Source: Haloferax sp. Q22 (GTDB lineage Archaea > Halobacteriota > Halobacteria > Halobacteriales > Haloferacaceae). Taken from it: a stretch of 64,000 nucleotides of DNA. The stretch covers positions 186,001-250,000 of the forward strand of contig NZ_LOEP01000037.1 of assembly GCF_001482285.1 (NCBI RefSeq). Reading direction: 5' to 3'. Position 1 is the first letter of the stretch, and each line of letters begins with the position of its first letter. The notes below the pieces were generated by a model. That model had not been told where the DNA came from, ran no database searches, and saw only the letters and a program-made list of their open reading frames with translations. Shown here piece by piece: positions 6,443-63,588 of this stretch. The translations under genes were made by a program, and so were the position numbers.

Positions 6443-8776
6443 ATGTCGAGAAATGAGTCCACGCCGGCGTTGATGTCCTCCTCATCGTGCCGGTACACGT
6501 TCGACCCGTCGGTCCAGACCGACGCCCACCTCCAGACGACGTGGGAGTGCCCGCACGAAGCCCACCCCGAAAGCGAGTTCTGCGTGTTCCACATGAGCCG
6601 CGACGAGCGCGCCTCGCTCGACGTGACCGGCGACGACATCGTCGGCGAACTCCGGGCGAACCTCCAGTCGCCCGACACCCGCGTCAACGAGTACGTCGGC
6701 GCGGACCTCCCACATCTCTCGCTCACCTATCAGGACATCAACGGCGCGACGAACCACGTTCTCAACTTCCAGCACGCCGACATCGAGGGGTTAGACCTCA
6801 CCCACGGCCGCCTCGACCAGGGGTTGATTCTCCGCGAGGCGACGGTCGACCGCCTCAAACTTGACGAGGCGGTCGTCACCGGCGACGTGGACGCCCGGGA
6901 GGTCACCGTGACCGGCGCGGTGACGACCAACGAGGCGACGTTCGAACAGGACGTTCGCTTCTCCGGGGCGACCTTCCGCGGCGAGGTCCGCTGCGACGAG
7001 ACGGTGTTCCAGGGCGACACCAGTTTCGCAGACGCGACGTTCCACGGCACGGCACGCTTCCGCAACGTCGAGACCAGCGGGAGCAGCCACGTCCTCGACG
7101 ACAACATCACCTTCGCGAACGCGACGTTCCGCGACGACGCGAGTTTCAGACAGGCCATCTTCGACTACGTGACGTTCGAGGGGGCGCGGTTCTCCGCGGG
7201 TTCGGACTTCGAACACGTCGAGTTCGAGGGAGACGCGCGGTTCGACGGCGTCCGCTTCGACGAGATGGCCGACTTCGACGAGGCGCGGTTCGATGACGAC
7301 GCGAGCTTCGCCGACGCCCGGTTCATGCAGTTGGCCGAGTTCCGCGGCGTCGAGTTCAACGGCGGGAGTCGGACGACCCACGACGACGTGACGTTCGAGG
7401 GCGCGACGTTCGAGGGCGAAGCGGACTACAAACTCGCGCGATTCCGCTATTCGGACTTCAAGGACGCCGTGTTCAAGGGCGCGGTCAACTTCGACCGCGC
7501 GACGTTCACCGCCCGCACCGACTGCTATCGCCTCCGCGTCGACGGCGCGTTCGACCTCTCTCTTTCGTCGTTCGGCGGGCAAGCGAACTTCGACGAGAGT
7601 GAGTTCCGCGACGCCGTCGTCGCCGAGGAGGCGACGTTCGGCTGTGACGCCTCGTTCGAGGCGGTCGAGTTCGAGTCTACCGCCCGGTTCGGCGAGGCGC
7701 GATTCGAAGAGGACGTGAGCTTCAAGACCGCCACGTTCCACGGTCTCGCGTCCTTCCGCGGGACGTTCTTCGAGGGCGAACTGCAACATCTCGAAGCGAA
7801 CGCCTCGTTCAACGAGGCGACCTTCGAGGCCGGCGCGGAGTTCGAGGCCGCGAACTTCACGAGCGCGTCCTTCTGGGAGACGACGTTCCACGACCGGGCG
7901 GACTTCCGGCAGTCGGATTTCGAAACGGCACGCTTCCGCGTGCTGGTCGGCGACCGCGACACCTACCTCGACTTCACCGACGCGACGCTTTCCGGCGGCA
8001 CGATATCGCAGGGCTCCGGCGAGCCGACGCCGTACGACCTCACCCGCGCGACCATCGGCGACCTGACGCTGGAGGGCGACGGCAACGAACACCAACTTCT
8101 GGACCACTTCCGCTTTTGTCTCACCGAGTTCGACCGCTTCGACTTCAGCGACCACCACGGCTATCTCGAACGCAACGACTGGACCATCCACGACTTCGTC
8201 GGCAACGGCGCGACCGGCCAGTTCGCCGTCGAACTGACGCCCGACATCATCGAGGAAACCTACCGGAAGGCGCAGGACAGCGCCAACGCCGTCGGCGACA
8301 CCCCCGCGAGCCGCGAGTTCGAGTTCAAGCGCTACTACTACAACCGCCAGAAGAACTTCGACATCATCCTCAACGAGTACTCGCTGAACACGTGGGCCCA
8401 CGGCAAGAAGGTCGCCAGCGTGGGGCTGAACATGCTCATGCAGGTCACCTGCGGCTACGGGAACCGGCTCCCGCGAATCGCGGCGTTCACGTTCCTCCTC
8501 CCGGCGCTGTTCGGACTGTGTTACGCCCTCGGCGGGCCGTTCCTGACGCAGGCGGGGAGCGCCTTCGACCCAGCCGCGGTCGACAAGACGACGATGGAGG
8601 TGCTCTTCGACAACGTCTACTACAGCTACATCAGCTTCAGCACGGTCGGCTACGGCGACATCAACCCGCTCGGCCCGGCGGCCCGCGTGCTCGCGGCGAG
8701 TCAGGGGATGTTGAACGGGCTGTTCTTCACCCTGCTCACGTTCACGCTGTTCAAGCGCGTGCTCGGCGGGAGCTAA
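6443..8776 (+). CDS. Pentapeptide-repeat protein fused to a K+ channel pore
   Basis: The 777-residue protein starts with a Cys/His motif (WECPHEAHPESEFCVFH, residues ~34-50). About 500 residues of pentapeptide repeats follow, with units such as ATFRG, ADARF and ATFEG, predicted to form a right-handed quadrilateral beta-helix. The C-terminal ~120 residues contain two membrane helices around a selectivity filter STVGYGD near residues 732-738. This is the canonical two-helix potassium channel pore. The repeat domain could be a sensor or gate on the cytoplasmic side. It is the last gene of the spermidine-synthase cluster, and polyamines are known blockers of K+ channels, so a functional link is plausible but inferred. 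Confidence 0.85.
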   Translation: MSRNESTPALMSSSSCRYTFDPSVQTDAHLQTTWECPHEAHPESEFCVFHMSRDERASLDVTGDDIVGELRANLQSPDTRVNEYVGADLPHLSLTYQDINGATNHVLNFQHADIEGLDLTHGRLDQGLILREATVDRLKLDEAVVTGDVDAREVTVTGAVTTNEATFEQDVRFSGATFRGEVRCDETVFQGDTSFADATFHGTARFRNVETSGSSHVLDDNITFANATFRDDASFRQAIFDYVTFEGARFSAGSDFEHVEFEGDARFDGVRFDEMADFDEARFDDDASFADARFMQLAEFRGVEFNGGSRTTHDDVTFEGATFEGEADYKLARFRYSDFKDAVFKGAVNFDRATFTARTDCYRLRVDGAFDLSLSSFGGQANFDESEFRDAVVAEEATFGCDASFEAVEFESTARFGEARFEEDVSFKTATFHGLASFRGTFFEGELQHLEANASFNEATFEAGAEFEAANFTSASFWETTFHDRADFRQSDFETARFRVLVGDRDTYLDFTDATLSGGTISQGSGEPTPYDLTRATIGDLTLEGDGNEHQLLDHFRFCLTEFDRFDFSDHHGYLERNDWTIHDFVGNGATGQFAVELTPDIIEETYRKAQDSANAVGDTPASREFEFKRYYYNRQKNFDIILNEYSLNTWAHGKKVASVGLNMLMQVTCGYGNRLPRIAAFTFLLPALFGLCYALGGPFLTQAGSAFDPAAVDKTTMEVLFDNVYYSYISFSTVGYGDINPLGPAARVLAASQGMLNGLFFTLLTFTLFKRVLGGS

Positions 8777-8794
8777 TCGCGCCAGTCCGCGTCC

Positions 8795-9625
8795 TCACTT
8801 CTCCGACCGCTCGTACACGTCCGGTCGCGCGTGCTGGAGCGTCTGCATGTCGCGGCGGATATCGTCAAGGTGGGACAGGTCGATGGTCGCCGTGACGACC
8901 TCCTCGCGGTCCCGCGCCTTCGAAATCACGTTCCCCCACGGGTCGACGACGAGCGTGCGGCCGTAGGTCTCGACCCACGACGGCTTGTCGCCGATCTGGC
9001 CGGGCGCGATGACGTACGCCTGATTCTCGATTGCGCGGGCGCGAAGCAGCGGCTCCCAGTGGTCTTTTCCGGTGTGCATCGTGAACGCCGACGGGACGAG
9101 AAGGACGTTCGCGCCGGACTGCGCCATCGTCCGGTAGAGCCCCGGGAACCGGAGGTCGTAGCAGATGGAGAGGCCGAACGTCGCGAGATCGGTGTCGACC
9201 GTCACCGTCCGGTCGCCGGATGCGACGTAGTCCGATTCCCTGTGTTCGACGCTCCCGTCGAGTTCGATGTCGAACAGGTGAACCTTCCGGTAGGTGTCGA
9301 GCACTTCACCGCCCGGGCCGATGAGTGCCGACGTGTTGTACACCCGGTCGCTGTTCGGAATCCGCTCGAAGAAACTGCCCGTATGGACGAAGATGTCGTG
9401 TTTGCGGGCCTTCTCGGAGAACCGTTGTATCGTCGGTCCGTCCAGCGACTCCGCGACCTCGGCGAACCGCTCTTCCGGGCCGATGAAGGTCGTCATCTCC
9501 GGGAACGCCACGAAGTCAGCGCCGTCGGCCGCGGCCTCGTCGAGGAGGCCGAGCGCCCGCTCCACGTTCGCCGCCTTGTCGTCTCGCGAGTCTAGCTGGC
9601 ACGCGGCCGCCACGAATCGGGACAT
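8795..9625 (-). CDS. Carbon-nitrogen hydrolase (nitrilase / omega-amidase type)
   Basis: The 276-residue protein matches the nitrilase superfamily over its full length. The catalytic triad is visible as Glu43 (AFPEM), Lys114 (YRKVHLFD) and Cys155 (SICYDLRFPGLY). The pattern and length fit the Nit1/Nit2 branch, which hydrolyses amides such as alpha-ketoglutaramate or deaminated glutathione. It is a soluble cytoplasmic enzyme. The gene is convergent with the channel gene, 18 bases between stops, and upstream of it lies the cupin gene on the same strand. The exact substrate cannot be read from the sequence. Confidence 0.9.
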   Translation of the reverse strand: MSRFVAAACQLDSRDDKAANVERALGLLDEAAADGADFVAFPEMTTFIGPEERFAEVAESLDGPTIQRFSEKARKHDIFVHTGSFFERIPNSDRVYNTSALIGPGGEVLDTYRKVHLFDIELDGSVEHRESDYVASGDRTVTVDTDLATFGLSICYDLRFPGLYRTMAQSGANVLLVPSAFTMHTGKDHWEPLLRARAIENQAYVIAPGQIGDKPSWVETYGRTLVVDPWGNVISKARDREEVVTATIDLSHLDDIRRDMQTLQHARPDVYERSEK

Positions 9626-9667
9626 CTCGTCGGAACGCTACGCGGACCGACGGTATGGTAGTCACGG

Positions 9668-10021
9668 TTATTCGCTCGGGTCGAACTCCAGATAGACGAG
9701 TCGCTTGTCTCCGACTGTCCAGCCGCGGTGTCCCGGCGGGATAGTCGCGGCACAGCCGGCGGTAATCTTCGTCTGCGTCCCGTCGTCCAGTTCGAGGCCG
9801 AGCGTCCCGGAGACGACGTAGATGTCGTGGGCGTTCTGGCAGTAGTCTGGCTCCGCACTCCCGCGGTCGCTGTCGGTTCCCCACTCCGGCTCCAGCGTCG
9901 CTCGCGTGACCGACACGTCGCTTAGGTCAACCGACTCCGTGCGGCCGGCTTCGAGCGCCGTCGAGTTCGTGTCGGAAAGCTCCGTGACAACCAGCTCGTC
10001 GACTTCTGTACTGTCTGCCAT
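9668..10021 (-). CDS. Cupin-domain protein
   Basis: The small acidic protein has 117 residues. Residues ~55-115 form a cupin barrel: HDIYVVSGTLGLELDDG is the first half, with an H-D in place of the usual HxH, and AATIPPGHRGWTVGDKRLVYLEF is the second half. Single-domain cupins of this size often bind small ligands or protect against stress. No specific role can be assigned. It is co-directional with the nitrilase gene and 42 bases upstream of it, so they may share a transcript. Confidence 0.8.
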   Translation of the reverse strand: MADSTEVDELVVTELSDTNSTALEAGRTESVDLSDVSVTRATLEPEWGTDSDRGSAEPDYCQNAHDIYVVSGTLGLELDDGTQTKITAGCAATIPPGHRGWTVGDKRLVYLEFDPSE

Positions 10022-57885: not shown

Positions 57886-58236
57886 CTATTCGGAGCGCTC
57901 CAACTGTTCGCGCCGCCGTTCGAACTCGTCGTCCGAGAGTTCGCCCCGCGCGTAGCGGGTTCGGAGGACCGACAGCGGCCGTTCGTCGGGATCGGTCTCC
58001 CGCCGCTTCCCGAGGGCGAAGACGAGGTACAGCGGAACCGCGAGCAGTAGCCCCATCCAGAGGAGTCCCCAGAGGCCCATCCCGCCGCCGAAGAGCCCCC
58101 AGCCACCGCTCATCATGCCGCCGCCGTATCCGCCGCCCATGGCGGCGGCCGTACCGGTCGCCGCGACCAGTAGCGGGACCGCAAGCATCGCGAGTCGGCG
58201 AGCAGTACGTCCGAGGTAGGTGTCACGTTGTGTCAT
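57886..58236 (-). CDS. SHOCT-domain membrane protein
   Basis: The 116-residue protein has an N-terminal helix or signal (RLAMLAVPLLVAATGTAAA), a Gly/Met-rich loop (GGGYGGGMMSGGWGLFGGGMG), a second membrane helix, and a C-terminal SHOCT motif (PLSVLRTRYARGELSDDEFERRREQLE). SHOCT domains are short helical modules often placed at the end of membrane or secreted proteins. Met/Gly loops are common in copper-linked proteins. It is the last gene of a minus-strand group with the Met-repeat protein and the winged-helix regulator. Confidence 0.8.
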   Translation of the reverse strand: MTQRDTYLGRTARRLAMLAVPLLVAATGTAAAMGGGYGGGMMSGGWGLFGGGMGLWGLLWMGLLLAVPLYLVFALGKRRETDPDERPLSVLRTRYARGELSDDEFERRREQLERSE

Positions 58237-58293
58237 TGGTTCGAATCGGTAGGTTGCGGTGTTCTATCGAGGCGATTCATCCGGACAGGTCCG

Positions 58294-58653
58294 TCAGCAG
58301 TGGCCCTGCCCGTACATTCCGCCGCTCTGTCCGTACATCCCACCGCTCTGCCCGTACATTCCGACGCCCTGTCCGTACATCCCGCCGTCGTGGTCGCCGT
58401 CAGCCATGTCTCGGGCCATCTCGTCGACGGTCACGCCCATGTGCGACTCCATCCATTCGACGCTCCCCGGCCCCATGTGTTCGGTCATCTGCGACTCCAT
58501 CCACGCCGCCCACTCGGCGGCGGTTCCACCGGTCGGGGCCGCGTCGTCGACAGCCGTTTCGTCGCCGTGTGTGCTGACCGCGGGCGCGGCGACCGCGAGT
58601 CCGACGATTGCGAGCGCCGCGAGCAGCCAGCGGCCGAGTTTGACGTTGGTCAT
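58294..58653 (-). CDS. Exported protein with C-terminal GGMYGQS repeats
   Basis: The 119-residue protein has a signal-like hydrophobic N-terminus (LLAALAIVGLAVAAPAVS) and an acidic middle with EWAAWMESQMTEHMG and VEWMESHMG. Four Met-Tyr-Gly-Gln repeats follow (MYGQG or MYGQS), ending in GQGHC. Met- and His-rich exported proteins often bind copper or silver. The neighbouring CopB-type ATPase supports a metal-binding role, by inference. A GAGGAG Shine-Dalgarno sequence lies upstream of ATG 58653, unusual in this leaderless genome. Confidence 0.75.
   Translation of the reverse strand: MTNVKLGRWLLAALAIVGLAVAAPAVSTHGDETAVDDAAPTGGTAAEWAAWMESQMTEHMGPGSVEWMESHMGVTVDEMARDMADGDHDGGMYGQGVGMYGQSGGMYGQSGGMYGQGHC
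58305..58390. repeat. 21-bp tandem repeats encoding GGMYGQS
   Basis: About four 21-bp units with CCGTACAT at their core differ at third codon positions, showing selection on the protein repeat. Copy number may vary between strains. Confidence 0.8.
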
Positions 58654-58730
58654 TGTGTTTCTCCTCGGTTGGTCGTAGGACCGCTCCGGAGTTATCGGAC
58701 TGGGTGTGAACACAGCTCTGAGAACGTCCA

Positions 58731-58751
58731 AGAACGTTTATACGGGGTTCT
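58731..58751 (-). promoter_or_regulatory. Promoter flanked by inverted AGAAC/GTTCT
   Basis: AGAAC and GTTCT flank a GTATAAAC element on the minus strand, about 85 bases before ATG 58653. It fits a repressible promoter for the Met-repeat and SHOCT genes. Confidence 0.45.
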
Positions 58752-58871
58752 AATCGTTTTTCAGAAACGGGACCGTTCATCAGCGCCGAATTCGCCGGTG
58801 TCGGGCCTTTCCGCGTACTCTCACCCACCGGTTCGGGCAACCCGCGAGCGAGGAGACGCCACGGCAGTCGG

Positions 58872-59471
58872 CTACGGCGCTTGGTTCTGCTGTAACTCGT
58901 CACTCGGATAGATTCGATACGTTCGTCCCTGGCGCTCGCGGTACAGCAACCCGCGTTTTTCGAGGGCGCTCACCGTCTGGCTCACCTTGCTCTTCGAGAA
59001 GTCCGAGCGGTCCCGGAGTTCTATCTGCGTGATCCCGGGCGAGGTGAGAACCGGTTCGAGCACCCGACGCTCGTCCTCCGGGAGGAAGTCCAACACGCGA
59101 GTCCGCGGGTGTGACGCCGAGGGACTCGTCTCCTCCGACTGACCGACTTCCGCCGGCGGTTCGGACCGTTCACGGTCGGTCGGATTTGGCGTCTGGCCCT
59201 GAACGCGCTCGCTCGCGTCCGCACCGTCTATCGCGTCTCGAACCGCGAGATACCCGCCACCGATGACGGTCGCGGCGAGGACTGTCCCGAGGACGTACCA
59301 CAGCGGGTTCGTTCCGTGAACGGCCCCCATCGACGTTCCCATGTCCATCATCGACCCCATCTGCTCGAACGCCTGCTGTCGCTGGTACGCCTGCCAACTG
59401 AGCGCTCCGCCGATGAGAACGGTGCCAGCGACGAGCGCGCCGACGACCGCGTCGGCTCGTCGCCGATTCAT
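58872..59471 (-). CDS. Membrane-anchored winged-helix transcription regulator
   Basis: The 199-residue protein has two N-terminal membrane helices (residues ~9-25 and 55-75). Between them is a Met/Gln/His-rich loop (EQMGSMMDMGTSMGAVHG) facing outside, followed by a disordered linker. A C-terminal winged helix follows (~130-195; LDFLPEDERRVLEPVLTSPGITQIELRDRSDFSKSKVSQTVSALEKRGLLYRE). The layout suggests a one-component membrane sensor. The Met-rich loop suggests copper or silver as the signal. A GAGGTG Shine-Dalgarno precedes ATG 59471. It is divergent from the copper ATPase gene. Confidence 0.8.
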   Translation of the reverse strand: MNRRRADAVVGALVAGTVLIGGALSWQAYQRQQAFEQMGSMMDMGTSMGAVHGTNPLWYVLGTVLAATVIGGGYLAVRDAIDGADASERVQGQTPNPTDRERSEPPAEVGQSEETSPSASHPRTRVLDFLPEDERRVLEPVLTSPGITQIELRDRSDFSKSKVSQTVSALEKRGLLYRERQGRTYRIYPSDELQQNQAP

Positions 59472-59906
59472 CCACCCCACCTCGGTTTCCCGTGATGCTC
59501 GTTCATGCACGGTGATTGGTGCGACACCGGTGTACCAGTTGTGGTTGTTGCGTCCACTTCTGCGTGCGTCCGGTGGGGATCGGAACGACCCACGGCGTTT
59601 CGATTCCAAGATATCGGCCGCCTCAGAGCCGATGTTTCGAAGGGAAAATCCGCATAAGGCCGGGGAGCGTACGTTTCCGTGTACGTCGGCGGCTGTCACC
59701 GTCCGGGGATAGCCCGCTGACCGCGAACAGAGAGCCGAAGTCGCGTGATACGATGCGCTTCCCGCGTCTGCGTGAACCTAGACGGTTCGAGAACCGTATA
59801 CCGTCGACGACTCCCTCACCGCTCTCCCCCTAATCCCCTTCGCCTGACCGCGCCGCGCTGTTTCAGGCTCCGGACAAGATGCGGGGACGGCACCACCCAC
59901 CAACCC
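59472..59906. promoter_or_regulatory. 435-base interval between regulator and copper ATPase
   Basis: No convincing gene. It contains GAACC-N5-GGTTC-GA-GAACC at 59774-59795, overlapping dyads whose inner palindrome ACGGTTC-GA-GAACCGT (59782-59797) is perfect in its arms. This is a plausible operator for the ATPase, about 110 bases before its ATG. Confidence 0.45.
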
Positions 59907-61946
59907 ATGAGCACCCATCCAGACCACGACCACGACCACGACGCTTCGTCACACCACCATCGCCAGGCCCACACCGACCATTCGGGCCACGAGCAGATGT
60001 TTCGGCGGCGGTTCTGGGTGTCGCTCGCGCTGTCGTTGCCGGTCGTCTACTTCAGCGAGTTCGTCCAAGGTACCTTCGGCTACACCGCGCCGACGTTCCC
60101 CGGAAGCGTTTGGATTACGCCCGTCCTCTCTATCGTCGTCTTCGCCTACGGCGGTGTGCCGTTCCTCTCGATGGCTCGGACCGAACTGGCGAACCGCGAA
60201 CCGGGGATGATGATGCTCATTTCGCTGGCGATCACCGTCGCGTTCGGCTACTCGATTGCGAGCCTGTTCATCGAGGGGACGACGCCGTTTTTCTGGGAAC
60301 TGGTCACGCTTATCGACATCATGCTCCTCGGTCACTGGATGGAGATGCGGTCGGTCCGGCAGGCTTCCGGGGCGCTCGACGAACTGGCCAAACTCATGCC
60401 CGACACCGCCGAGCGCGTCACCGAGAGCGGGGATACTGAGGAGGTTCCCGTCTCTGCACTGTCGGAGGGCGACGTCGTGCTCGTCCGGCCCGGCGCGTCG
60501 GTTCCCGCTGACGGCGAGGTCGCCGAAGGCGAGTCGTCGGTCGACGAGTCGATGATCACGGGCGAGTCCCGCCCCGTCGACAAGGACGCCGGTTCGGAGG
60601 TCATCGCCGGCACGGTCAATCAGGACGGGAGCCTCCGCGTGAGGGTCACGAAGACGGGAGACGAGACGGCGCTGGCGGGAATCATGCGTCTGGTCGAGGA
60701 CGCCCAGCAGTCCAAATCCCGCACGCAACTCCTCGCGGACCGCGCGGCCGGCTGGCTGTTCTACGCCGCGCTCGCCGCCGCGGGAGTCACGGCCGTCGCG
60801 TGGGTTCTCGCGGTCGGGTTCAGCGTTGGCGTCCTCGAACGCGTCGTGACAGTCCTCGTCATCGCGTGTCCGCACGCGCTCGGTCTGGCCGTCCCGCTCG
60901 TGGTCGCAATCAACACCTCGACGGCCGCCCGAAACGGGATGCTCATCCGCGACCGCATCGCCATGGAGGAGGCGCGGAACCTCGATACCGTCGTCTTCGA
61001 CAAGACGGGCACGCTCACGAAGGGCGAACAGGGAGTCGTCGGCGTCGAGACCGCGGGCGAGTGGGACGAGACGCGGGCGTTCGAGGTCGCCGCGGGCGTC
61101 GAGGGCGACTCGGAGCACATGATCGCTCGCGCGATTCGGAACGCCGCCACCGACCGCGGCGTTCGACAGGCCACGGTGTCGGAGTTCGAGAACCTCCGCG
61201 GACTCGGCGTCCGGGCGACCGTCGAGGGCGAGACGGTTCACCTCGGCGGCCCCAACCTGATAGACCGACTCGGTATCGAGTATCCCGACGAAATCGCGTC
61301 GTTCGCCGACGAGGCCGGCTCGAACGCCCAGACCGTCATCTATCTGATTCGGGACGAGTCGGAGGTCGTCGCGGCGTTCGCGCTCGCCGACGTCATCCGC
61401 GAGGAGAGCCGGCGGGCCATCGAGGCGCTGCACGCGATGGGAATCGAGGTCGCGATGCTGACCGGCGACTCCGAGGACGTCGCGCGCGCCGTCTCTGCGG
61501 AACTCGGCATCGACCAGTATTTCGCGGAGGTCCTGCCCGAGGAGAAAGACACCAAAATAGCGCGGCTCCAGTCCGAGGGGAAGCGGGTCGCGATGGTCGG
61601 CGACGGCGTCAACGACGCGCCGGCGCTCGCGAGGGCGGATGTCGGCATCGCCATCGGCTCCGGCACCGACGTCGCCATCGAATCGGGCGACATCATCCTC
61701 GTTGACAACGACCCCGTAGACGTGGTTCGGCTCGTCAAGCTCTCGAAGGCGAGCTATCGAAAGATGCAGGAGAACCTCGTCTGGGCGACCGGCTACAACG
61801 TGTTCGCACTCCCGCTCGCCGCGGGCGTTCTCGCGCCGGTCGGTATCCTCCTGTCGCCGGCGGTCGGCGCTGTGTTCATGTCTCTGTCGACGATTATCGT
61901 CGCGGTCAACGCCCGTCGGCTCCGGGGTATCGACCTCTCGGCGTGA
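59907..61946 (+). CDS. CopB-type heavy-metal P-type ATPase
   Basis: The 679-residue P1B-ATPase has a His/Asp-rich N-terminus (11 histidines in the first 30 residues), TGE (218-220), the intramembrane metal motif Cys-Pro-His (321-323), the phosphorylated Asp365 in DKTGT and [12 protein letters not shown] near the end. The CPH motif and histidine-rich N-terminus identify the P1B-3 (CopB) class, which exports copper or silver. I chose ATG 59907; the longer open frame upstream lacks similarity. Its neighbours, a Met-rich membrane regulator and a Met-repeat exported protein, form a coherent metal-handling group. Confidence 0.93.
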
Positions 61947-62156
61947 CGATGCTAGTCGTTACGGCTACCTGCTCGCCGCCGATACCCCGCGAATCCCCGT
62001 TGAGGGCGTTCTGGTTGGCCTGCCGAGACGCGTGACGAAACTCCACCGGTTCGTCGGACCCGTTCCGCTATGACCGTTTTTCCTTATCGACCCATTCCGC
62101 GCGCTTTCGCACGTAGGGTACACGTTCATTAGCCGCCACTGCGAGTCTCGATTGAT

Positions 62157-62231
62157 ATGTTTTCACGTACCAATACCTCGCGGACCGCCGCACCCTGGTC
62201 GTCGGCGCTCGTTTTCCTCGGAGGTCGCTGA
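62157..62231 (+). CDS. 24-codon leader ORF before tail-tube gene
   Basis: It starts MFSRTNTSRTAAPW and its TGA ends two bases before ATG 62234. A strong Shine-Dalgarno (GGAGGT, 62220-62225) for the next gene lies inside its last codons. Coupled translation is possible; expression is unproven. Confidence 0.3.
   Translation: MFSRTNTSRTAAPWSSALVFLGGR
62220..62225 (+). promoter_or_regulatory. Strong Shine-Dalgarno (GGAGGT)
   Basis: It lies 8 bases before ATG 62234 and fixes that start. Few genes in this window have such a site. Confidence 0.65.
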
Positions 62232-62233
62232 CG

Positions 62234-62836
62234 ATGGCCACTCGGACAGACCCGTACAGACAGCTACGGTTCATCCTCGAAATTGGTGGACTCGTGACCG
62301 CCGGCTTCAGCCGCTGTGACCTCCCGTCGGCGACCTCGGCGGTCGTCGAGTACCGCGAGGGGGCCGACCCGCCGACGCCGCGGAAACTCCCCGGTCTGAA
62401 CGAGTACGGGCCGCTCGTGCTCGAAGTTGGTGTGACCGACCGGTCGCTCGAACTGTCCGAGTGGCGGACGCTCGTCGAACAGGGCGAGATGGCCGAAGCC
62501 CGGCGCGACGCCGCAGTCGTGCTGTTGGACGCGACGGGCAACCCCGCCGCTCGCTGGGTCTTCCGCGAGGCGTGGCCCTCGAAGTACGACGCGCCCCGGT
62601 TGGACGCGATGGCCTCCGAAGTCGCCGTCGAGCGCCTCGTCGTCGTCCACGAGGGATTCGCACGAATCGCGGTCGAAACCGGTGACGACGAGGACGACGA
62701 GAGTGAGAACGACGGCGGTTCCACCCCAGCGCTCCCGGACCTCGACTTCCCGGTCGGTGAGGGACTGCCGCAGGGCATCGACGAATCGCGACTGAAGGTG
62801 AGTCGCGCCGGCGATGAGGAGTCCGACGAGACGTGA
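62234..62836 (+). CDS. Phage/CIS tail-tube-like protein (gp19 family)
   Basis: The 200-residue protein matches the T4 gp19-like tube fold used by contractile phage tails and extracellular contractile injection systems. It has DPYRQLRFILEIGGLVTAGFSRCDLPS, VVEYREG...PRKLPGLNEYGPLVLEVGVTD, LSEWRTLVEQG, AAVVLLDATGNPAARWVFREAWPSKYDAP and AVERLVVVHEGF. A long acidic tail (150-200) follows. It overlaps the second tube-like gene by four bases (GTGA). No sheath, baseplate, spike or ATPase genes lie nearby, so the pair is either the edge of a locus or an isolated unit. Confidence 0.85.
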   Translation: MATRTDPYRQLRFILEIGGLVTAGFSRCDLPSATSAVVEYREGADPPTPRKLPGLNEYGPLVLEVGVTDRSLELSEWRTLVEQGEMAEARRDAAVVLLDATGNPAARWVFREAWPSKYDAPRLDAMASEVAVERLVVVHEGFARIAVETGDDEDDESENDGGSTPALPDLDFPVGEGLPQGIDESRLKVSRAGDEESDET

Positions 62837-63369
62837 CCGCGGCCGAGTCCGACCCCTACGGCGCACACCGGTTTCGGGTCCGATGCGACGCGCTCCCGAA
62901 GCTGGGGTTCTCCGAAGTTCGCGGGCTCTCGGTGGCGGTCGAGTCCGCGAACGGAGACGAGTCGCGGTCCGACTCGCCGCCGTCCGAGACCGACCGCCGC
63001 GACCGCTACGGCCGTCGCGGCCGCCGTGTGCGGAAGCGACCGGGTCCGCGACCGCGGCCACCCTCACCGTCCCGCCGAGAAGCCAGTTCGCCGCCGCTCG
63101 AACTCCGTCGGGGTGTCACCGACGACCAGTCGCTGTGGGCGTGGTTCCGGGCGTGGGTCGACGGCGAGGCGACCCCACAGGACATTTGCATCTGCCTGCT
63201 CGACGCGACCGGCGAGCCGGTTCGCGGGTGGGTCTGCCGGGCGGCGACGCCGGTCAGGTGGACCGGGCCGCACCTCGTCGCCGACGCGGCCGCCGTGGCG
63301 ACGGAGTCGCTCGAACTGACCCACGAAGGAATCGACGCCCTCACCGACCTCGACGAGTGCGCCGACTGA
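62833..63369 (+). CDS. Second tail-tube-like protein with Arg-rich insertion
   Basis: The 178-residue protein keeps the tube-fold landmarks (DPYGAHRFRVRCDALPKLGFSEVRGLSVAVE, then LELRRGVTDDQSLWAWFRAWVDG, ICICLLDATGEPVRGWVCRAATPVRWTGPHL and SLELTHEGI). The central loop, normally the R-x-PG segment, is replaced at residues 42-88 by a Ser/Arg/Pro-rich, strongly basic stretch. That is odd in an acidic halophile proteome. A basic tube lumen or surface could bind nucleic acid or acidic cargo. The start is GTG 62833, inside the end of the previous gene. Confidence 0.8.
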   Translation: MTAAESDPYGAHRFRVRCDALPKLGFSEVRGLSVAVESANGDESRSDSPPSETDRRDRYGRRGRRVRKRPGPRPRPPSPSRREASSPPLELRRGVTDDQSLWAWFRAWVDGEATPQDICICLLDATGEPVRGWVCRAATPVRWTGPHLVADAAAVATESLELTHEGIDALTDLDECAD

Positions 63370-63393: not shown

Positions 63394-63588
63394 TCACGGA
63401 CCGAGGTCGTTCGGCCCCGCCGTCGTTCGCTCGTCGGACTCCAGCATCGCCTCGTGCTTGCCGCGGTAGTACAGCCACCCGAAGACGAGCAGCGTCAGGG
63501 GAAAGAACACGAGGGCGATGAGCGCCGCCGGCGGAAACAAGACGAACAGCGCGAACGTCTGCCACGAAACGAGCGTGTCGCGTGCCAT
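63394..63588 (-). CDS. Small two-helix membrane protein
   Basis: The 64-residue protein has two closely spaced hydrophobic helices (residues ~9-26 and 27-42) and a charged tail (YYRGKHEAMLESDERTT). No family recognised. It converges with the tail-tube pair (25 bases between stops) and is divergent from the TRAM gene. Confidence 0.6.
   Translation of the reverse strand: MARDTLVSWQTFALFVLFPPAALIALVFFPLTLLVFGWLYYRGKHEAMLESDERTTAGPNDLGP

Follow-up and report, generated by a model that had tools for sequence, protein, structure and literature searches.

Two overlapping tube-type genes of Haloferax sp. Q22, whose genome lacks a sheath match: a possible co-opted two-subunit module

Near the end of the window, i.e., the stretch of 64,000 nucleotides of Haloferax sp. 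Q22 analysed here (contig NZ_LOEP01000037.1, positions 186,001 to 250,000), two genes of the gp19 type lie in tandem on the forward strand. The first, gp19a (62234..62836, +), encodes a Cis1-like tube protein of 200 amino acids. The second, gp19b (62833..63369, +), encodes a Cis5-like tube-adaptor protein of 178 amino acids; its GTG start overlaps the stop of gp19a, the two reading frames sharing 4 bases. A first-pass annotation of this DNA had claimed two overlapping gp19-like tube genes, and they are there. Against a curated cut-off of 28.2 bits, PF06841 is matched by gp19a with 122.8 and by gp19b with 82.1 bits, which is far beyond chance and places both in the family. The cut-off of TIGR02241 (62.4) is likewise exceeded by both (122 and 73, respectively). 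Within the family they differ. Of the NCBIfam equivalog models, CIS1 ranks above CIS5 for gp19a (88.4 versus 48.8 bits) and CIS5 above CIS1 for gp19b (72.1 versus 14.3 bits). These scores lie below the equivalog cut-offs of 220 (CIS1) and 260 (CIS5), so neither protein is a member of the respective equivalog; the ranking nevertheless indicates that gp19a is tube-like and gp19b adaptor-like. Profile searches in the PDB with either protein matched solved tube proteins and adaptors of contractile injection systems (CIS) by sequence. Two tube-type proteins, Cis1 and Cis5, are a hallmark of a CIS, and both types are represented in the pair according to its placement in joint and separate trees.

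The pair is preceded by a block (62103..62137, +; about 97-131 bases upstream) that is near-identical in all eight Haloferax loci with the pair. Its conservation suggests that it is the promoter region; the sequence immediately 5' of it is not common to all of these loci. A probable ribosome-binding site, GGAGGT (62220..62225, +), can be read from the sequence 8 bases before the start of gp19a, and its GGAGG is kept in eight out of eight Haloferax species. In gp19a, residues 33-58 (62330..62407, +) correspond to the ring-stacking hairpin loop, which appears intact; the model places its strands at 33-40 and 48-58. The C-terminal tail of gp19a (residues 151-200; 62684..62833, +) is acidic, with a net charge of -15, and is predicted to be disordered (pLDDT < 50 in the AlphaFold2 model); among the 12 representatives compared, such a long tail is limited to Haloferax, SHRA6 and g46. 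In gp19b, residues 38-82 (62944..63078, +) make up a variable arm that replaces the Cis5 loop and for which the model predicts no regular structure. Inspection of the N termini of gp19a and gp19b by eye revealed no apparent signal peptide or membrane segment, which makes a cytoplasmic place likely.

The genes next to the pair do not qualify as its partners. As the first-pass annotation had noted, a small gene opposes the pair within 25 bases (the 3' end of its 64-amino-acid reading frame is at 63394, the end of gp19b at 63369), and a TRAM-domain gene follows (PF01938, 59.9 bits). Both seem not to be part of the pair's system: each of the seven pairless congeners examined has the TRAM gene, with no gp19 pair alongside, and the small gene is located elsewhere in two genomes (G009 and G012). 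In Halorubrum aidingense (G355; L097, around 6978-9875) a single gp19 gene lies some 2.5 kb from a TRAM relative; this proximity is taken as coincidence. Positions 57886-61946 of the window hold a cassette of a P-type ATPase, a MarR-type regulator, a SHOCT protein and a 145-amino-acid reading frame. It is found in five of the eight Haloferax loci, is absent from the other three (G001, G007, G011) and was rejected as a partner; this variable cassette perhaps serves metal handling.

In neighbourhoods annotated with a home-made gene caller, which missed or cut some short genes, seven families within 8 kb of the pair are common to two or three genera. In five of the six g14 genomes (L086:2169-4123), genes for two membrane proteins read as LivH and LivM lie downstream of the pair, at a distance of 6.3-7.5 kb; in G322 a LivH/LivM-like pair lies 3.2-4.3 kb upstream of the gp19 genes, together with two ABC ATPases (L107:4445-8174). 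In both settings these genes were interpreted as those of a branched-chain amino-acid ABC transporter. A threonine-synthase-like family, so named by our own reading, adjoins the pair in five of the six g14 genomes and is 7.2 kb away in G015. Side and distance vary, and the recurrence of these families was therefore tentatively read as chance. The nearest neighbours differ genus by genus; the pair behaves as a self-contained two-gene module.

Other parts of an injection machine had been reported as missing from the window, and none was seen in a comparison with CIS-region proteins. The queries were 142 proteins predicted in ten such loci, run against the 574 reading frames of the window. Repeated matches were obtained only for gp19a (14 queries) and gp19b (11 queries); five further reading frames were matched by one query each and were interpreted as ABC-type ATPases and further genes of the flanks. 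By this comparison neither a spike nor an AAA+ ATPase nor any tail-type homologue beyond the pair was seen in the window. A complete system directly after the TRAM gene, which the annotation had considered as a possible finding against an orphan pair, is not there: a 144-amino-acid protein, TFB and a MacB/FtsX-type permease are encoded instead. A CIS just past the window was also rejected, since the contig ends 3,462 bases beyond the window, after the TFB and permease genes, with nothing CIS-like up to there. The annotation had further advised a genome-wide look for sheath and baseplate genes. Profile searches of the whole genome (3.98 Mb, 56 contigs, 99.88% complete) covered PF06841 (tube), PF04984 (sheath) and PF04965 (gp25); they yielded two matches to the tube family, which are the pair itself, and none to sheath or gp25.

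The distribution of the pair was investigated by profile searches for tube (PF06841) and sheath in 392 sampled genomes of the order. Tube genes were found in 76 genomes, sheath genes in 47, both in 45. Hence 31 of the 76 tube-bearing genomes lack a sheath match; 21 of them have a tandem pair and 10 a single gene. Together with one more genome (G003), 22 pairs are at hand; they span six haloarchaeal genera, with eight in Haloferax, one in SHRA6, six in g14 (Halorubrum), four in g46, two in g64 (Halorientalis) and one in g95. No sheath match was obtained in any of the 22 genomes, several of which are assembled in only 2 to 4 contigs, and gp25 is absent from all nine that were tested for it. In a search of 59 genomes of relatives, sheath and gp25 turned up in exactly the same eight genomes, which means that both searches identify the same haloarchaea as CIS holders. 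Among the matches listed (80 loci), Halorientalis persicus, Halorientalis pallida and Halobellus captivus are further holders of the pair. A local profile detected no sheath reading frame in 16 named haloarchaeal pair loci (L115-L130, about 12.5 kb each); it found one in 52 of 72 other loci (L131-L202). Seven named haloarchaeal genomes without a local sheath (six with a pair, one with a single gene), mostly of the same species as in the 392-genome sample, gave no sheath match genome-wide, and the Halogranum control did give one.

Other arrangements of these genes were also seen. In G130 and G315 (L102, L106) a single gp19 gene is located between genes for predicted proteins of 1,372 to 2,265 amino acids, with no sheath match; this may be another kind of system. 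G375 and G067 (L113, L114) show the reverse of the pair genomes, a sheath match without a PF06841 match, and are possibly viral tails or contain other tube families. The CIS genomes G219 and G199 (L111, L112) have three gp19 genes each; two of those in G199 follow each other directly in tandem, not far from the sheath gene.

Within Haloferax, 15 genomes were compared. Eight carry the pair, all at one site, and seven do not; two of the latter possess a CIS that includes sheath and gp25, and its tube proteins share only 26-28% identity with the pair. All 22 matches to eCIS_core (DUF4157) fall into these two CIS-bearing genomes. The remaining 13, including all eight with the pair, have none, which argues against a link of the pair to injected effectors of that type. 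Plasmid records contain no near DNA match to the pair; at the protein level, 84 of them have a relative of gp19a, with up to 47% identity (Paenibacillus). The nearest haloarchaeal Cis1 looked at (G020) is 47% identical to gp19a as well. By this measure, bacterial tubes are about as similar to gp19a as this Cis1, and a tree with 18 non-haloarchaeal Cis1 was made for this reason.

In a mixture-model tree of the haloarchaeal tubes, the 22 gp19a proteins form one group (99/99; 98% of 200 bootstrap trees), which joins the Cis1 of 11 CIS genomes (100/99). The 22 gp19b proteins also form one group (100/99, or 100/100 if the long branch of G322 is left out). These joint and separate trees comprise the pairs and those CIS genomes for which a gp19 locus was available; they omit the 10 single-gene orphans, the other CIS genomes, an extra gene on contig 22 of G046 and three divergent genes of G219. 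The tree with the 18 bacterial and other-archaeal Cis1 was built with 12 of the 22 gp19a, 10 of the 11 related and four other haloarchaeal Cis1. Here, the 12 gp19a representatives again stay together (93/82; 100% of 200 bootstrap trees) and are found among the haloarchaeal Cis1, separate from the 18 (100/99 for those). The single origin of gp19a is, however, less well supported after addition of these bacterial and methanogen-type tubes. In a first FastTree, calculated with a simpler model, gp19a was not one clade and the CIS tubes of the related group were nested inside; several of the ten single-gene orphans share one clade in that tree. The roots of all trees are midpoint roots and a drawing aid only. 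With one clade for each half, one origin of the pair common to the six genera is likely.

Both gp19 cores are under purifying selection in the eight Haloferax species. Median dN/dS values, obtained by a simple pairwise method at low divergence, are 0.125 for the core of gp19a and 0.148 for that of gp19b; the arm of gp19b, in contrast to its core, reaches 0.593. For the neighbours the values are 0.373 (small gene), 0.436 (TRAM), 0.580 (144-amino-acid gene) and 0.092 (TFB). Only TFB is thus lower than the cores of the pair.

AlphaFold2 monomer models of moderate confidence (mean pLDDT 70.6 for gp19a and 75.9 for gp19b) predict the tube fold for gp19a, its best solved matches being CIS tube and adaptor proteins, and for gp19b a fold that matches CIS adaptor and tube proteins. 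The TM-scores of the best 20 matches, normalised to query length, are 0.39-0.48 for gp19a and 0.43-0.57 for gp19b. In tail tubes, one ring touches the next by a long loop, which in most cases connects strand 2 to strand 3; according to the available part of PMC9022992, it is the main ring-to-ring contact in tail tubes of the siphophage type and contributes in those of the T4 type, too. The length of this loop was counted between two fixed anchors, identical for the compared groups. It is 30 residues in all 22 sheathless gp19a, in 33 of 34 Cis1 and in 35 of 35 Cis5 from CIS genomes. The same stretch of the 22 sheathless gp19b comprises 33-60 residues and comes in 12 different lengths. The EGG motif of the loop is present in 35 of 35 Cis5 versus none of the 22 gp19b; conversely, a WxC motif occurs in every gp19b (22/22) versus one of the 35 Cis5. 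Four residues of gp19b (S86, W108, L123 and C135) are fixed in all 12 representatives, whereas among the 35 Cis5 W108 is found in none, C135 in one and L123 in nine. The replaced loop together with the fixed residues suggests that one loop of gp19b was released and that the remainder is now a distinct conserved family. The arms themselves are diverse. Those of the eight Haloferax gp19b are basic and proline-rich, with net charges of +5 to +9; the 12 arms of g14 (Halorubrum), g46 and g64 (Halorientalis) contain one to three tryptophans each. As they differ by genus, a common client is not evident.

How does the pair compare with known systems? The haloarchaeal CIS, also called archaeal type six secretion system and described for Halogeometricum borinquense and Haloferax elongans in the available part of PMC11566945, has a Cis1-type tube and a Cis5-type adaptor like the pair, and its Cis1 from 11 genomes groups with gp19a. 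The pair differs from it by consisting of only two genes, by the missing sheath and gp25 matches and by the replaced adaptor loop; moreover, the Haloferax pair holders have no eCIS_core match. Zachs and colleagues, as far as the same part of PMC11566945 tells, used the sheath gene as the query of their survey (41 of 350 genomes); pairs without a sheath would not appear in such a survey. The tube-baseplate adaptors Cis5, Afp5 and Pvc5 resemble gp19b in profile and fold, but have the 30-residue EGG loop where gp19b has an arm of 33-60 residues, and W108 and C135 are fixed in gp19b. In a CIS, the loop of the Cis5 adaptor would face the baseplate hub. A last comparison is with Hcp hetero-hexamers, which belong to the sheathed type VI secretion system and are similar to the pair by fold only. 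In PDB 9vne, by its title a Hcp2-Hcp3 hetero-hexamer of Bacteroides fragilis, two subunits with tube fold build one ring. A mixed ring of this kind would be possible for gp19a and gp19b as well.

We believe, with a probability of about 0.55, that the pair is a co-opted, sheath-free module of two tube-protein subunits. Its genes are related to those for the tube (Cis1) and the tube-baseplate adaptor (Cis5) of the haloarchaeal CIS; they probably separated once from such a CIS and have since been kept as stand-alone tandem genes. In the mechanism we propose, gp19a would form hexamer-type rings, still able to stack via the intact long loop, and gp19b would provide the end ring that carries gp19a. 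A contact between the two proteins is suggested by the tandem genes, the parallel clades and general knowledge of the family. Having exchanged this loop for a flexible arm that varies in length and sequence, gp19b would be freed from the baseplate, and the arm might be displayed for docking of a client protein or nucleic acid. Rather than an injection device, the cytoplasm would then contain a hetero-ring or a short, one-ended stack of rings. Of course, the loop of gp19b could have drifted simply because the baseplate is gone. The first-pass annotation had offered a tube protein re-used as a stand-alone nanotube. Stand-alone re-use is supported by the present data; the nanotube is a putative form of it.

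The same annotation had named two further options, a split locus and a relic. In a split or trans-acting CIS, the sheath, baseplate and ATPase would be encoded elsewhere in the genome or be too diverged for recognition. The genome is a draft of 56 contigs and the families searched throughout it were tube, sheath and gp25, which leaves some room for this idea. It is, however, largely refuted: not one of the 22 sampled pair genomes gave a sheath match in a search that detected sheaths in 47 of the 392; gp25 is missing in nine of nine, eCIS_core in eight of eight Haloferax pair genomes, and gp19b is devoid of the loop expected, from the family, to face the baseplate. A split CIS is thus very unlikely. 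Decay after loss of a CIS would be in line with the resemblance of both genes to CIS genes and with the fast change of the gp19b arm. Yet the matches of all 22 pairs are free of internal stops, both cores are under purifying selection, residues are fixed across genera, and upstream block and ribosome-binding site are conserved. A likely single origin in six genera and the identical remodelling of one and the same subunit in 22 of 22 pairs add to this. Selection and phylogeny contradict a relic, which is hardly tenable.

A cryptic virus, a provirus or a gene-transfer agent with a non-contractile tail would also need tube proteins; the fold is common to phage tail tubes, and a PHROG tail tube match is recorded for the pair. 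But eight of eight viral contigs with a relative also have a sheath reading frame in the locus, and the seven found with gp19a are 25-36% identical. Among phage records there were six, all of Streptomyces phages, with 29-30% identity. Further, no tail-type gene was seen beside the pair in the window by comparison with CIS-region proteins, and its neighbourhood varies between genera. A viral nature is rated as very unlikely. The pair might finally act as a decoy against injection: it would bind or cap the tube protein of a rival CIS, or stop the growth of a CIS tube in its own cell, and thereby protect the holder. Such a role is compatible with the retention in gp19a of the loop of working tubes. 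The ecology is plausible too, since a haloarchaeal CIS kills Haloferax volcanii on contact, as stated in the available part of PMC11566945. Also, pair and sheath were never met in the same genome: of the 392 genomes, 21 have the pair and 47 a sheath, and the overlap is 0. The latter, however, may be chance (hypergeometric P = 0.063), and relatedness of the genomes weakens it further; PADLOC gives no match for the pair. We therefore rate the decoy as rather unlikely.

The co-opted module, if real, would have consequences beyond this locus. The pair suggests that tube proteins can live outside injection machines and virus tails, and do so under selection. It sits in a genus with good genetics, and whether tube proteins assemble and act in the absence of a sheath is thus testable. 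Surveys that are keyed to the sheath miss tube-fold proteins wherever no sheath match exists, here in 31 of the 76 tube-bearing genomes; a whole class of assemblies would be easily overlooked in this way. Searches of open-access papers yielded no description of stand-alone tube-gene pairs.

Similar pairs are seen in bacteria. The sphingomonads Polymorphobacter arshaanensis and Sandaracinobacteroides hominis have two adjacent gp19 genes each. In the sphingomonad pairs (L136:6001-6871, L185:5974-6853, L137:95-1019), the first protein has the stacking loop and the second does not; the two genomes tested (L136, L185) gave no sheath match. In G423 and G477, again with no sheath match, the second gp19 match starts only past the loop, the second protein of G477 being judged by the start of the profile match only. 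Like the haloarchaeal pair, the sphingomonad pairs combine a loop-bearing with a loop-poor partner in the absence of a sheath match. They differ from it by another second protein and by a bacterial housekeeping context: the neighbourhood in Polymorphobacter (L136), as read from its reading frames, includes glyA, nrdR, ctrA and mnmA, with nrdR and ctrA as direct neighbours of the pair. The sphingomonad pairs give the impression of having reached this design independently. Tentatively, and with slightly more doubt than confidence, one may generalise that tube proteins were turned at least twice, in haloarchaea and in sphingomonads, into sheath-free intracellular ring or tube devices of two parts, of which one keeps the stacking loop and the other loses it or makes a docking arm of it.

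The sheathless state is not general in the sphingomonad family: among 149 genomes, 21 have gp19; of these, 13 match the sheath profile (11 with a score over the cut-off) and eight do not. A pair in a draft genome of the Planctomycetota (G401; L143:2373-3386) has no sheath match, and its second protein keeps the loop, which speaks against a general rule of loop loss. Single stand-alone gp19 genes occur in two Niabella genomes (L159:5950-6375, L168:5944-6369) that have no sheath match; both genes lie near an apparent gene for the ATP synthase alpha subunit.
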